In this document: positions 3,197-7,488 of the stretch, one piece after another
How positions within the stretch are numbered: position 1 is the stretch's first letter
How the letters are laid out: every line of letters begins with the position of its first letter
From: Flavobacteriaceae bacterium
Lineage (GTDB): Bacteria; Bacteroidota; Bacteroidia; Flavobacteriales; Flavobacteriaceae
Assembly (NCBI GenBank): GCA_002719315.1
Contig: PBHD01000001.1
Location: 355,909-388,307, forward strand
Direction: 5' to 3'
Length of the DNA stretch: 32,399 nucleotides
Position numbers and translations under genes: made by a program
The notes under the pieces: generated by a model
Databases searched by the model: none
Seen by the model: only the letters and a program-made list of their open reading frames with translations
What the model was told of the DNA's origin: nothing

Positions 3197-5656
3197 TTGA
3201 AATCTACTTATATTTTCTTCTTAATACTTATTTCGATAAATACAGTTTTATCACAAAGCTCTACTGAGATTTATAAAAAAATAAAAAAACTAAATTTTTT
3301 AGGTTCTGTTTTATATGTAGCAGCTCACCCTGATGATGAAAACACAAAATTAATCTCATATTTTTCAAATCATCTAAACGCAAGAACAGGATACTTATCT
3401 TTAACTAGAGGAGATGGTGGTCAAAACCTAATTGGAAACGATTTAAGAGAAAAATTAGGTGTAATAAGGACACAGGAATTAATAAATGCAAGGAAAATTG
3501 ATGGAGGTGAACAGTTTTTTACCACAGCTAATGATTTTGGATATTCTAAACATCCAAAAGAAACACTAGAAATATGGGATAAAGAAGACATCTTATCTCA
3601 AGTAGTTTTTTTAATTAGAAAATTTAAACCAGATGTAATTATAAATAGATTTAATGAAAAAACTCCAGGCTCTTCACATGGTCATCATGCCAGTTCAGCA
3701 CTATTAAGTTTAGAAGCAAATAATAAGTCAAATAATCCCGCTTTTTTTTCAAATCAATTAAACGTTGTAAAACCATGGAAAGCAAAAAGGATATTTTATA
3801 ACACTTCCTGGTGGGCTTATGGTAGTAGAGAAAATTATCAAAAAATCGATAAATCTGAAATGGTTTCAATTAACACAAACTTATTTGATCCAATCTCTGG
3901 ATACTATAATTCAAAAATTGCATCAAAAAGTCGAAGTCAACATAAGTCTCAGGGTTTTGGAAGTTCTCCTTCTTTTAATAGAAACATAGAGTATTTAGAA
4001 CTAATTAGTGGAAAAGAAATAAATTCAAATAATATTTTTGAAGACATTGACACTTCCTGGAAAAGAGTAAATGGTGGACGTGAAATTGAAATCTTAATCA
4101 ATGAAGTTTTAGAAAACTTTAATTTTAATAAACCTTATAATAGCATAAGTAATCTTTTGAAAATTTACCAAAAAATTAAAGAACTTGAAAACACTCATAT
4201 TAAAAACACAAAAATTAAAGAGCTTTCTGAAATAATTATAAATTGCTTAGGTCTAGAAATTCAATTTAATTCAAAGAAAAATTATGGAATCCCTGAGTCT
4301 TATATTGATGTTGAATTTAAATTATATAATCCAAGCCCAATAAATGTTAGTATTAAAAAAATTGAATTAAATAATTTTTACATAAATGATATTTCATTAA
4401 AAAACAAAAAAGTTCTTTCTGTAGAAAAGAAAATTAAAATTCCAAATAAATTTACTGCACCCTTTTGGCTTCTTGGAAAAAAAACTGATGGAAATTATTT
4501 TGTGGAAGATTTCAAAATAAAAGGAAATCCAGAAACTACTCACCCTCTTAAATCTATTTTTAGTATTAAAGTTGATGATGTTTTAATTGAAATTGAAAGA
4601 GAACTAAAATATAGATACAATGATCCGGTGAAAGGAGAGGTAATTGAAAAATTTGAAATTTATCCAAAAGCAAATGTTAAACTAGAAAAGGATGTTTATG
4701 CCTTTATTAACTCTGATAATAAAGAAATAAATGCAATTATTACTAATAATGATGACAAACTTAAAGGCTTTGTGGAATTAAAATTACCTAAAAACTGGAT
4801 TAGCATTCCTAAAAGATATGAAGTGTCAATTAATAATAAAGGTGAATCTAAATCTTACAAATTTTCTGTAAGAAGTTCTCCAAATGAATCATTAAATGAA
4901 ATTTCTGCTAATTTTTATTCTGAAATGAAAATTTACAATTATAATTTGATTAATCTTAATTACAAACATATAGCAAAAAGTAATATTCTTCTTCCCAACA
5001 AATCAATTGCTTTTAAAATTAACCTTAAAAGTAATGTAAAAGAAATAGGCTATATAAAAGGGGCAGGTGATAAAATACCTGAATCTTTAGAATCCATTGG
5101 CATTTCTGTTACAGAATTAGATCTTTCAAAACTTGAAACATATAATTTAGAAAAATTTCCATCTATAATTATGGGAATTAGAGCATATAACACAAATTCT
5201 CTTTTAAAAATTAAAAACAATATTCTTTGGAATTATGTTAAAAATGGTGGAAACCTTATAATACAATACAACACTTCAAGAAGATTAAAAAACAATAAAA
5301 TCACCCCATATAAAATAAATATATCGAGAGATCGTGTAACAAATGAAAAATCAATTGTTAAGTTTTTAAATCCAAATCATAAAATCCTTAACTACCCGAA
5401 CAAAATAAGTCTTAATGACTTTAATAATTGGGTACAAGAAAGAGGATTGTATTTTCCAAATGAATGGGGTAAAGAATTTAGTCCAGTTCTCTCAATGAAC
5501 GATATTAATGAAGATGAAAAGAAAGGATCTTTGCTGGTTGCGTATTATGGAAAAGGAACCTTTATTTATACAGGATTAAGTTTTTTTAGACAACTTCCAA
5601 ATGGAATACCTGGAGCATACAAACTGTTTGTAAACTTAATATCACATAAGAGATGA
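3197..5656 (+). CDS. Secreted PIG-L family deacetylase with C-terminal amidotransferase-like domain
   Basis: 819 residues, read from a TTG codon at 3197; this start is chosen because it gives a clean signal peptide (KSTYIFFLILISINTVLSQ) and no ATG fits. The PIG-L/LmbE catalytic domain spans about residues 35-290: metal and catalytic motif AAHPDDE (H44, D46, D47, E48) and the second metal motif HGHH at 161-164. The middle (about 350-600) looks like beta-rich immunoglobulin-type domains. The last 200 residues, from about 615, resemble a class I glutamine amidotransferase-like fold used for binding, ending FIYTGLSFFRQLP. PIG-L enzymes remove N-acetyl groups from sugars. The target here is unknown. 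Its stop overlaps the micro-ORF ATG, tying it to the downstream symporter. Confidence 0.85.
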   Translation: MKSTYIFFLILISINTVLSQSSTEIYKKIKKLNFLGSVLYVAAHPDDENTKLISYFSNHLNARTGYLSLTRGDGGQNLIGNDLREKLGVIRTQELINARKIDGGEQFFTTANDFGYSKHPKETLEIWDKEDILSQVVFLIRKFKPDVIINRFNEKTPGSSHGHHASSALLSLEANNKSNNPAFFSNQLNVVKPWKAKRIFYNTSWWAYGSRENYQKIDKSEMVSINTNLFDPISGYYNSKIASKSRSQHKSQGFGSSPSFNRNIEYLELISGKEINSNNIFEDIDTSWKRVNGGREIEILINEVLENFNFNKPYNSISNLLKIYQKIKELENTHIKNTKIKELSEIIINCLGLEIQFNSKKNYGIPESYIDVEFKLYNPSPINVSIKKIELNNFYINDISLKNKKVLSVEKKIKIPNKFTAPFWLLGKKTDGNYFVEDFKIKGNPETTHPLKSIFSIKVDDVLIEIERELKYRYNDPVKGEVIEKFEIYPKANVKLEKDVYAFINSDNKEINAIITNNDDKLKGFVELKLPKNWISIPKRYEVSINNKGESKSYKFSVRSSPNESLNEISANFYSEMKIYNYNLINLNYKHIAKSNILLPNKSIAFKINLKSNVKEIGYIKGAGDKIPESLESIGISVTELDLSKLETYNLEKFPSIIMGIRAYNTNSLLKIKNNILWNYVKNGGNLIIQYNTSRRLKNNKITPYKINISRDRVTNEKSIVKFLNPNHKILNYPNKISLNDFNNWVQERGLYFPNEWGKEFSPVLSMNDINEDEKKGSLLVAYYGKGTFIYTGLSFFRQLPNGIPGAYKLFVNLISHKR

Positions 5657-5739
5657 AATATTCAATTTATATTCTTTTAGCCACAGTAAATATCTTTTAT
5701 TGGATCCTTTTCTATTTGTTAATGAAATCAATGTATTAA
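5653..5739 (+). CDS. 28-residue single-helix membrane micropeptide between deacetylase and symporter
   Basis: ATG at 5653 overlaps the PIG-L stop codon as ATGA (5653-5656), and its own TAA (5737-5739) overlaps the symporter ATG as TAATG (5737-5741). The product begins MKYSIYILLATVNIFYW, continues with ILFYLL, and ends KSMY. It is almost entirely one hydrophobic helix with a single lysine at each end, so it should sit in the inner membrane. No family is recognised. The exact coupling at both ends is the main evidence that it is translated. An accessory subunit of the symporter is a plausible but untested role; small membrane partners are known for some other SSS-family transporters. The alternative is that it serves only as a coupling leader. 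Confidence 0.55.
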   Translation: MKYSIYILLATVNIFYWILFYLLMKSMY

Positions 5740-7403
5740 TGTCTACAATAGATTGGTTTATTTTAACTTCAACTATTTCTTTCATTGTCATATATGGTAT
5801 CTGGCAAAACAAAAAACACAAAAATTTAAATGAATATATAAAGGGGTCGAATACAGCAAGATGGTGGACTGTAGGTCTATCAGTTATGGCTACACAGGCA
5901 AGTGCTGTAACCTTTTTATCAACACCTGGGCAAGCTTTTCATGATGGTATGGGGTTTGTTCAGTTTTATTTTGGGCTTCCTTTTGCAATGATTATAATTT
6001 GTATCTTTTTTATTCCTATTTACAATAAATTAAAAGTATTTACAGCTTATCAGTTTCTTGAGGATCGCTTTGACAAAAAAACTAGAAAATTAACTGCAAT
6101 ATTATTTCTCATTCAAAGGGGTTTAGCAGCTGGAATTACAATTTATGCCCCTGCCATTATATTAAGTATTATTCTTGATTGGGACTTAGATTTATTAATA
6201 ATTATTATAGGGGTTATTGTAACTACCTACACTCTTATTGGGGGAACAAAATTGGTAAATGTAACCCAGAAACAACAAATGATTGTCATTTTTACTGGAT
6301 TGATAATAACATTTTTTTATGTTACAAATAGTTTTCCTAATAATATAAACTTTGTTGAGTCACTTAAAATTGCAAAATCTTTTAACAAACTAGATATTAT
6401 TGATTTTAGTTTTGATCTTAATAATAGATACACTTTTTGGAGTGGAATAACAGGTGGCCTTTTTCTTGCTTTATCATATTTTGGTGCAGACCAAAGCCAA
6501 GTTCAAAGATATTTATCTGCTAAGTCACTCAAAGAAAGTCAAATAGGTTTAATAATGAATGGTTTTTTAAAAGTTCCTATGCAGTTTTTTATTTTATTAA
6601 TTGGTGTTATGATATTTATTTTTTATCAATTTGAAACTGCTCCAATAAATTTTAACCCAAAAGTCATAGAAAGTCTAGAAATGAGTTCTAAAAGTGAATC
6701 TTTTAAAAAATTAGAAAAAGAAAATATTACAACTCAAACAAAAATTAAAGAATACTTTCTAAAAAAATATAACACAAAAGATAAAGATGAAAATGAAATT
6801 GACTCTCTCTATAATTTAGAAAAATCTCAAAGAGAAATGGTCAAAATTATGTCAAGCTCAATTAATCCTAAAATAGAAACAAACGATAAAGATTATGTTT
6901 TTATTTCTTACATAATAAAATATTTCCCAAAAGGTTTAATTGGTCTATTAATTGCCGTTATTATATGTGCGTCAATGAGTTCAACAGCTTCTGAACTTAA
7001 TGCTCTTGCAGCTACAAGTGTTATTGATATATACAAAAATGATAACCAAAAAACTGATCTACACTATGTTAAAGCTACTCAAATATTCACATTAATTTGG
7101 GGGATAATAGCTATATTTTATGCTTCAATTGGAACATTATTTGAAAATTTAATTCAATTAGTAAATATAATTGGGTCAATATTTTATGGAACAATTCTTG
7201 GAATTTTTATATGTGCAATTTTTATAAAAAAAATAAAATCAAAATCGATTTTTTACTCTGCTATATTCTCTGAGATAATAATAATTATTGTTTATTTTTT
7301 AAATATTATAAGTTTTTTATGGTTAAATTTTTTAGGTGCTATTATTACAATTCTATTAGCTTATTTAATTCAATTACTTATAAAAGAATCAATAAAAAAA
7401 TAG
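5739..7403 (+). CDS. Sodium:solute symporter (SSS family)
   Basis: 554 residues from the ATG at 5739. A TTG at 5700 would add 13 residues (MDPFLFVNEINVL), but those codons lie over the micro-ORF in another frame, so the ATG is preferred. About 13 membrane helices are visible. SSS features include the unwound first-helix region ATQASAVTFLSTPG and the segment ADQSQVQRYLSAKS, both standard in this family. Between two helices, about residues 310-400, is a charged insert of some 90 residues, expected to be extramembranous. SSS proteins use the sodium gradient to import sugars, amino acids or sialic acid. With an upstream secreted deacetylase, the cargo may be an amino-sugar-like deacetylation product; that is inference. 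The gene ends 12 bases before the convergent tRNA-Met. Confidence 0.85.
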   Translation: MSTIDWFILTSTISFIVIYGIWQNKKHKNLNEYIKGSNTARWWTVGLSVMATQASAVTFLSTPGQAFHDGMGFVQFYFGLPFAMIIICIFFIPIYNKLKVFTAYQFLEDRFDKKTRKLTAILFLIQRGLAAGITIYAPAIILSIILDWDLDLLIIIIGVIVTTYTLIGGTKLVNVTQKQQMIVIFTGLIITFFYVTNSFPNNINFVESLKIAKSFNKLDIIDFSFDLNNRYTFWSGITGGLFLALSYFGADQSQVQRYLSAKSLKESQIGLIMNGFLKVPMQFFILLIGVMIFIFYQFETAPINFNPKVIESLEMSSKSESFKKLEKENITTQTKIKEYFLKKYNTKDKDENEIDSLYNLEKSQREMVKIMSSSINPKIETNDKDYVFISYIIKYFPKGLIGLLIAVIICASMSSTASELNALAATSVIDIYKNDNQKTDLHYVKATQIFTLIWGIIAIFYASIGTLFENLIQLVNIIGSIFYGTILGIFICAIFIKKIKSKSIFYSAIFSEIIIIIVYFLNIISFLWLNFLGAIITILLAYLIQLLIKESIKK

Positions 7404-7414
7404 GAGCTTATTAG

Positions 7415-7488
7415 TAGCGAGGGGGAGACTTGAACTCCCGACCTCCGGGTTATGAATCCGACGCTCTGACCACCTGAGCTACCTCGCC
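7415..7488 (-). tRNA. tRNA-Met (anticodon CAT)
   Basis: On the reverse strand 74 bases fold as a full cloverleaf: acceptor GGCGAGG pairs with CCTCGCT (one G-U at the end), D-arm GCTC/GAGC, anticodon arm with loop TTCATAA, and T-arm GGGAG-TTCAAGT-CTCCC. The anticodon CAT lies at 7454-7452. The discriminator base is A and no CCA is encoded, so CCA must be added by nucleotidyltransferase, as is common in Bacteroidota. G1-T72 is a wobble pair rather than the mismatch usual for initiators, and the anticodon stem lacks three G-C pairs, favouring elongator Met. A lysidine-modified tRNA-Ile(CAT) is the alternative. Confidence 0.93.

Follow-up and report, generated by a model that had tools for sequence, protein, structure and literature searches.

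A micro-ORF between a PIG-L gene and an SSS symporter gene

The window analysed here comprises 32,399 nucleotides from a Flavobacteriaceae bacterium (assembly GCA_002719315.1, contig PBHD01000001.1), and three genes follow one another on its plus strand. The first (positions 3197-5656) encodes a large PIG-L family protein (PF02585, E 1.6e-13) of 819 aa when read from TTG 3197, a putative start from which the N-terminus looks, by eye, like a signal peptide. The last (5739-7403) encodes a sodium:solute symporter of 554 aa beginning at ATG 5739, whose assignment to the SSS family (TC 2.A.21) is based on matches above cut-off to both TIGR00813 and PF00474 (E 9e-41 for the latter) and on a predicted SiaT-like fold. 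Between them lies a micro-ORF of 28 codons (5653-5739), with its ATG at 5653-5655 and its TAA stop at 5737-5739, the product of which, MKYSIYILLATVNIFYWILFYLLMKSMY, is a predicted single-helix microprotein that sequence and alignments place in a phylum-wide family. A tRNA-Met (CAT) gene occupies 7414-7488 on the minus strand, 10 nt past the symporter stop. Other symporter-like places in the same genome are distant paralogues, the top-scoring one being 33% identical.

The micro-ORF overlaps both neighbours, in agreement with the initial annotation: its start forms an ATGA (5653-5656) with the PIG-L stop TGA at 5654-5656, and its stop forms a TAATG (5737-5741) with the symporter start, the two having one base in common. 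This double overlap had been judged unlikely to arise by chance. In a simulation, 2.6% of random 82-nt gaps with the base composition of the window held an ORF starting with ATG, 20 codons or longer, whose ends loosely matched, which makes the overlap alone weak evidence and leaves the decision to conservation; the comparative data presented below go far beyond chance.

The mechanical ORF list begins the symporter at TTG 5700, and the initial annotation had moved this start to ATG 5739. An ATG was found exactly at the aligned position, without adjustment, in 25 of 27 loci (own included), which bears out the move. The M1 column was also invariant in 18 hand-picked symporters, an invariance that is partly there by construction because the script let each start move to the closest start codon up to 4 codons away. 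From these alignments, the symporter very probably starts at ATG 5739 and not at TTG 5700, and the 13 extra residues of the TTG 5700 reading are best regarded as an artefact of choosing the longest ORF.

Conservation of the microprotein and its place before the symporter

We searched 60 relatives (own genome included) with a symporter threshold of E <= 1e-100. The symporter was held by 40 of them, and an ORF of the same pattern stood directly upstream of it in 39 of these, own genome included in both counts, with lengths of 28-41 codons among those translated. Genome G055 (L103) gave no micro-ORF by profile and no PIG-L match in the stretch examined. Two alignments were built, A1 from the first 30 members and A3 from 45 members. 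In A1, Y6 and F20 are invariant and a W, N13 and Y16 nearly so, the W being missing from the window microprotein and from L011. Whole-genome profile searches matched the window micro-ORF itself at E 7.3e-7 and 5.2e-5; its own row is present in both profile alignments, therefore the other members, and not this match, count as evidence.

To select loci by the transporter, public genomes were scanned using the symporter alignment alone, and the best 80 of 576 loci are referred to here as named loci (L266 among them is identical in sequence to the earlier L028). The micro-ORF lies directly upstream of the symporter in all 80, with a weakest profile E of 2e-4; in L262 its frame has no ATG start. 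PIG-L is adjacent in 72 of the 80 and absent from that position in 8, 6 of which are labelled Tenacibaculum. Where PIG-L is adjacent (72 named loci), the 4-nt overlap with it seen in the window recurs in 10; the 1-nt overlap with the symporter recurs in 6 of the 80. To judge from these loci, the microprotein is widespread in the phylum Bacteroidota, many Flavobacteriaceae included. No annotated plasmid copies of the symporter were found at E <= 1e-60. In L012 (G005, oriented positions 818-1501) no PIG-L is found between Maf and the micro-ORF, the micro-ORF and symporter are kept, and the Maf ORF overlaps the start of the micro-ORF by one base.

Of 395 class genomes searched, 150 were matched by the microprotein profile (E <= 1e-3), 208 by the symporter profile (E <= 1e-80) and 219 by the PIG-L profile (E <= 1e-60), and some of the genomes searched also contribute rows to the profile alignments; an order-wide microprotein search with 262 of 395 genomes at E <= 1 was too loose and is excluded as a tally. 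Among the matches listed, the symporter could be scored as a neighbour for 118 of the 150 micro-positive genomes and PIG-L likewise for 118. The micro-ORF lies -2 to 193 nt upstream of the symporter in 115 of the 118 genomes scored for it, and at 75 of these 115 loci the profile match ends no more than 2 nt from the projected symporter start, too close for a separate stop codon to fit between them. Of the 118 genomes scored for PIG-L, 92 have it as the adjacent gene. By hand count, 98 genomes have both neighbours listed; 76 have both adjacent, 19 the symporter only and 3 PIG-L only, and 5 of the 19 have PIG-L further off, on the same strand at 471-1796 nt upstream. A search of the phylum matched 107 of 335 genomes, 35 of them outside the class, and a symporter without obvious break comes next in 21 of the 23 of these 35 that were examined; 10 of those 21 loci have no adjacent PIG-L. 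The micro-ORF thus stays linked to the symporter where PIG-L is missing. It stands almost always immediately in front of symporters of a single SSS clade, and with 115 of 118 class genomes and all 80 named loci it shows the gene adjacency looked for in small accessory subunits of this family.

Homologous loci lacking the ORF, which the initial annotation had held to speak against it, do exist: 16 of 29 profile-negative class loci and 1 of the 40 nearer relatives, mostly in distant lineages. The 29 were examined out of 61 class genomes (hand count) that have the symporter without a profile match; 13 of them contain a diverged micro-ORF in the right place, weak in L136, L139 and L143, and 16 contain no micro-ORF, one of these (L140) with only 92 nt of upstream sequence. 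In L153, L154, L157 and L170, no micro-ORF occupies the 41-183 nt between PIG-L and symporter. Some lineages have therefore lost or replaced the microprotein, or never acquired it, and because these have the same symporter without the micro-ORF it is accessory, not universal.

Detached copies were also seen. The micro-ORF sits behind PIG-L with the symporter elsewhere in L160, L162 and L165 (genomes G531, G620 and G626), where the ORF lists place opposite-strand genes beyond it. In L162, one same-strand frame of 142 aa lies 1.3 kb further on, within an opposite-strand ORF, and a converging transporter-like ORF nearby had no match to a Pfam family. L200 (G826, 1501-1961) has the PIG-L end and the microprotein intact and the symporter in fragments, possibly through an assembly error, and L216 (2823-2930) holds an apparently orphan microprotein with no symporter or PIG-L match within 5.6 kb.

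A comparison of synonymous and nonsynonymous change, proposed with the initial annotation, came out as expected for a coding sequence. Among loci with profile E <= 1e-4, pN was below pS in 47 of 48 disjoint pairs 60-97% identical (mean pN 0.169, mean pS 0.554), in a set that contains a few genomes twice as loci and that is biased to conserved proteins because it was chosen by profile match. Close pairs differ by 0 or 1 amino-acid change versus 6-11 silent changes, an excess that is hard to explain otherwise, despite the selection of the set. On this comparative evidence purifying selection acts on the amino-acid sequence, and we take the micro-ORF to be a genuine, selected gene.

The members are about 26-54 aa long and have one helix, their lengths being approximate since a fixed rule chose an ATG close to the profile match as start. 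In a set of 95 (79 named-locus peptides and 16 A3 rows), the best 19-residue mean hydropathy exceeds 1.6 in 92, in line with the earlier description of the product as one hydrophobic helix. Selection and hydropathy together (47 of 48 pairs, 92 of 95 members) describe a small hydrophobic protein under purifying selection. Lysine plus arginine is higher on the N-side than on the C-side in 90 of the 95, the window copy being neutral at 1 versus 1. Following the positive-inside rule, this excess suggests an N-in, C-out orientation, i.e., the N-terminus is likely cytoplasmic and the C-terminus periplasmic.

Proposed role of the microprotein

The predicted model of the symporter (pLDDT 81.3, pTM 0.80) has its nearest structural match in SiaT, a sialic acid symporter (5nva; TM 0.76/0.88, 22% identity), and also resembles SGLT2 chains; the best PDB sequence match is 5nv9 (E 8.1e-71). 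A long helical insert at residues 307-375 (window 6657-6863), between modelled helices 264-298 and 384-432, contains many fast-varying aligned columns. When microprotein and symporter were folded as one chain, the mean pLDDT was 65.6 and that of the helix about 57, and given this low confidence the model was used for no more than a helix at residues 11-33. Of the 34 loci with microprotein and symporter in frame, 31 were aligned and L255, L262 and L279 left out. Covariation over 163 pairs (Neff 127) placed 192 of 14595 inter-protein pairs above the intra-symporter 99.5% level versus 73 expected, an excess confounded by clade; the top signals involve fast columns (the 307-375 insert and the tails) or the N13/Y16 clade split and are spread over many helices.

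As for the substrate, the microprotein-symporter pair of L207 is divergent to genes (1002-2676) for a NagB-like deaminase (TIGR00502 just above cut-off; PF01182) and a short PIG-L protein (PF02585). NagB was seen in 1 of 310 loci, most of which have short flanks. This neighbourhood is a single hint that the symporter may transport an amino sugar.

Considering all the comparative data, the microprotein is probably an accessory subunit of one helix whose role is to stabilise or activate the SSS symporter, much as MAP17 acts on SGLT2. Translational coupling would yield it in roughly the amounts of the symporter, and it would insert with its N-terminus in the cytoplasm and its C-terminus in the periplasm and pack with its helix on the outer face of the symporter; once packed, it may help the symporter to fold, to remain stable or to gain full transport activity. 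The initial annotation had offered a stoichiometric subunit or a coupling leader. Of its claims, a selected single-helix coding sequence tied mainly to the transporter is supported, as is the moved symporter start; the leader as sole role is disfavoured.

A coupling leader would be an ORF whose reading merely delivers ribosomes to the symporter start, its peptide being functionless. The overlap in the window, and the 75 of 115 class loci where stop and projected start must overlap, are what such a leader would produce. It fits poorly with the amino-acid conservation, with pN well below pS and residues common to diverse members, as well as with gaps to the symporter that reach 193 nt and with five genomes that retain the micro-ORF where no intact symporter adjoins it. 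Because of this selection on the peptide, the long gaps and the survival away from the symporter, we disfavour the leader as sole role and regard it as very unlikely. That the micro-ORF arose by chance in AT-rich intergenic sequence can be practically dismissed: a tiling ORF does appear in 2.6% of simulated gaps, but chance would hardly explain its presence in 80 of 80 named loci, the profile matches in 150 of 395 class genomes and the purifying selection.

The other two alternatives accept a functional peptide. It could be a turnover or regulatory peptide in the manner of MgtR, MgtU or MgtS, sending the symporter to a membrane protease or shielding it from one. Such peptides, alike in size and shape, act on other bacterial transporters, according to the accessible part of PMC10710835; however, the fixed place before the symporter, with frames often overlapping, suggests constant co-production, and nothing in this analysis speaks positively for proteolysis, so that we find this role improbable. 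Alternatively, the helix might tie the periplasmic deacetylase to the symporter in a PIG-L/microprotein/symporter complex, from which the deacetylated product is passed on for import. PIG-L adjoins the micro-ORF in 92 of 118 micro-positive genomes of the class (among the matches listed) and in 72 of the 80 named loci, which is consistent with this, as are the three genomes that keep the micro-ORF with PIG-L and not with the symporter, and the NagB-like deaminase and short PIG-L adjoining the pair in L207. On the other hand, PIG-L is missing beside symporter-linked micro-ORFs in 8 of 80 named loci, in L012, L014 and L036, and in 10 of the 23 loci examined outside the class, and the short C-terminal tail of the microprotein leaves no space for an obvious docking domain. 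We consider such a complex unlikely; since the micro-ORF persists without adjacent PIG-L, a PIG-L scaffold is possible, not the sole role. It is tempting to speculate that the microprotein is an ancient, phylum-wide scaffold joining periplasmic PIG-L to the symporter and, where PIG-L is absent, a MAP17-like activating subunit. In this combination, which we hold to be doubtful, deacetylation of the substrate would take place at the membrane and be followed directly by import.

Comparison with known small membrane subunits

Searches with A1 and A3 gave no credible microprotein match in Pfam, NCBIfam or PDB sequences. Membership of a known Pfam family was rejected, the matches at E <= 10 being scattered, weak and unrelated (lowest 0.006 and 0.0049, DUF2976 and DUF6480, 5 members each), and a known NCBIfam family was rejected for the same reason (A1 and A3, E <= 10; lowest 0.012 and 0.0085). 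A3 against PDB sequences gave five unrelated chains at E 1.4-2.6 and no MAP17, in a search that can miss short helices and in a file that possibly holds no MAP17 chain. The family is thus new relative to the libraries searched, a statement whose scope is family libraries and not single genome annotations. Among the literature matches listed (titles and abstract starts, most subscription papers lying outside the scope) we found nothing on the micro-ORF; within the same scope, the phrase 'symporter small accessory protein' had no match and related wording gave a single mention. In the available text of a review of prokaryotic SSS symporters (PMC7918813) the terms 'subunit', 'accessory', 'YjcH' and 'small protein' do not occur, the available main text of the Pro-SMP finder paper (PMC10903887) does not contain 'symporter', and in the table accessible in PMC10710835 a single entry is labelled SSS, namely SbtA with the PII protein SbtB. 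The gene described here is therefore one that lies outside all family libraries searched, yet is widely conserved directly before a symporter gene.

Small accessory proteins of SSS transporters are nevertheless a known kind, because NCBIfam contains NF045580 and TIGR03647. NF045580 (symport_access, a short name for symporter accessory protein) is a model of 33 positions, about the length of the microprotein; we take its full wording to be 'symporter small accessory protein' and its product to be a single helix. No member of A1 or A3 matched it (cut-off 35 bits) among the matches listed at E <= 10, where HMMER filters drop most weak matches (NCBIfam families listed at this level were 6 of 6 for A1 and 25 of 29 for A3). 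It had no match in the own genome, and in a control of 14 genomes it matched in Methanosarcina acetivorans only. In our reading the microprotein is of the same kind as NF045580, but of another family. TIGR03647 (Na_symport_sm), presumably the DUF4212 type, is like the microprotein a small membrane partner encoded beside an SSS symporter, and differs in having 77 positions and, by eye, two helices. This 77-position model was not among the families listed for A1 or A3. A W-K motif of its first helix is similar by eye, and we considered whether the microprotein is a halved TIGR03647; profile-profile comparison (hhalign, nine TIGR03647 members) gave a probability of 1.2% with A3 and 7.9% with A1, and the idea was rejected. 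The own genome does encode a TIGR03647-type subunit (L175, G000:C13:7869-8099), just before another SSS-like place (G000:C13:8168 onward), which gives an example of such a pair of genes within this genome.

Further afield, AcrZ, KdpF, CydX and MgtS are, like the microprotein, small membrane peptides on larger membrane proteins, and differ from it in that their partners belong to other families, as far as the accessible parts of PMC10710835 and PMC10903887 describe them.

Symporters that are expressed or annotated without the microprotein may be incomplete transporters. A known parallel is MAP17 (PDZK1IP1) with human SGLT2; MAP17 is longer than the microprotein and, like it, has one transmembrane helix. 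The accessible text of PMC10803289 describes this single helix as contacting TM13 of SGLT2 and MAP17 as an auxiliary subunit required for transport, and argues that its effect is on localisation and folding of SGLT2 rather than on activity directly. The question of what a single-helix helper does for its transporter, a subject of work on human SGLT2, would with the microprotein open to bacteria, with deletion and suppressor genetics.
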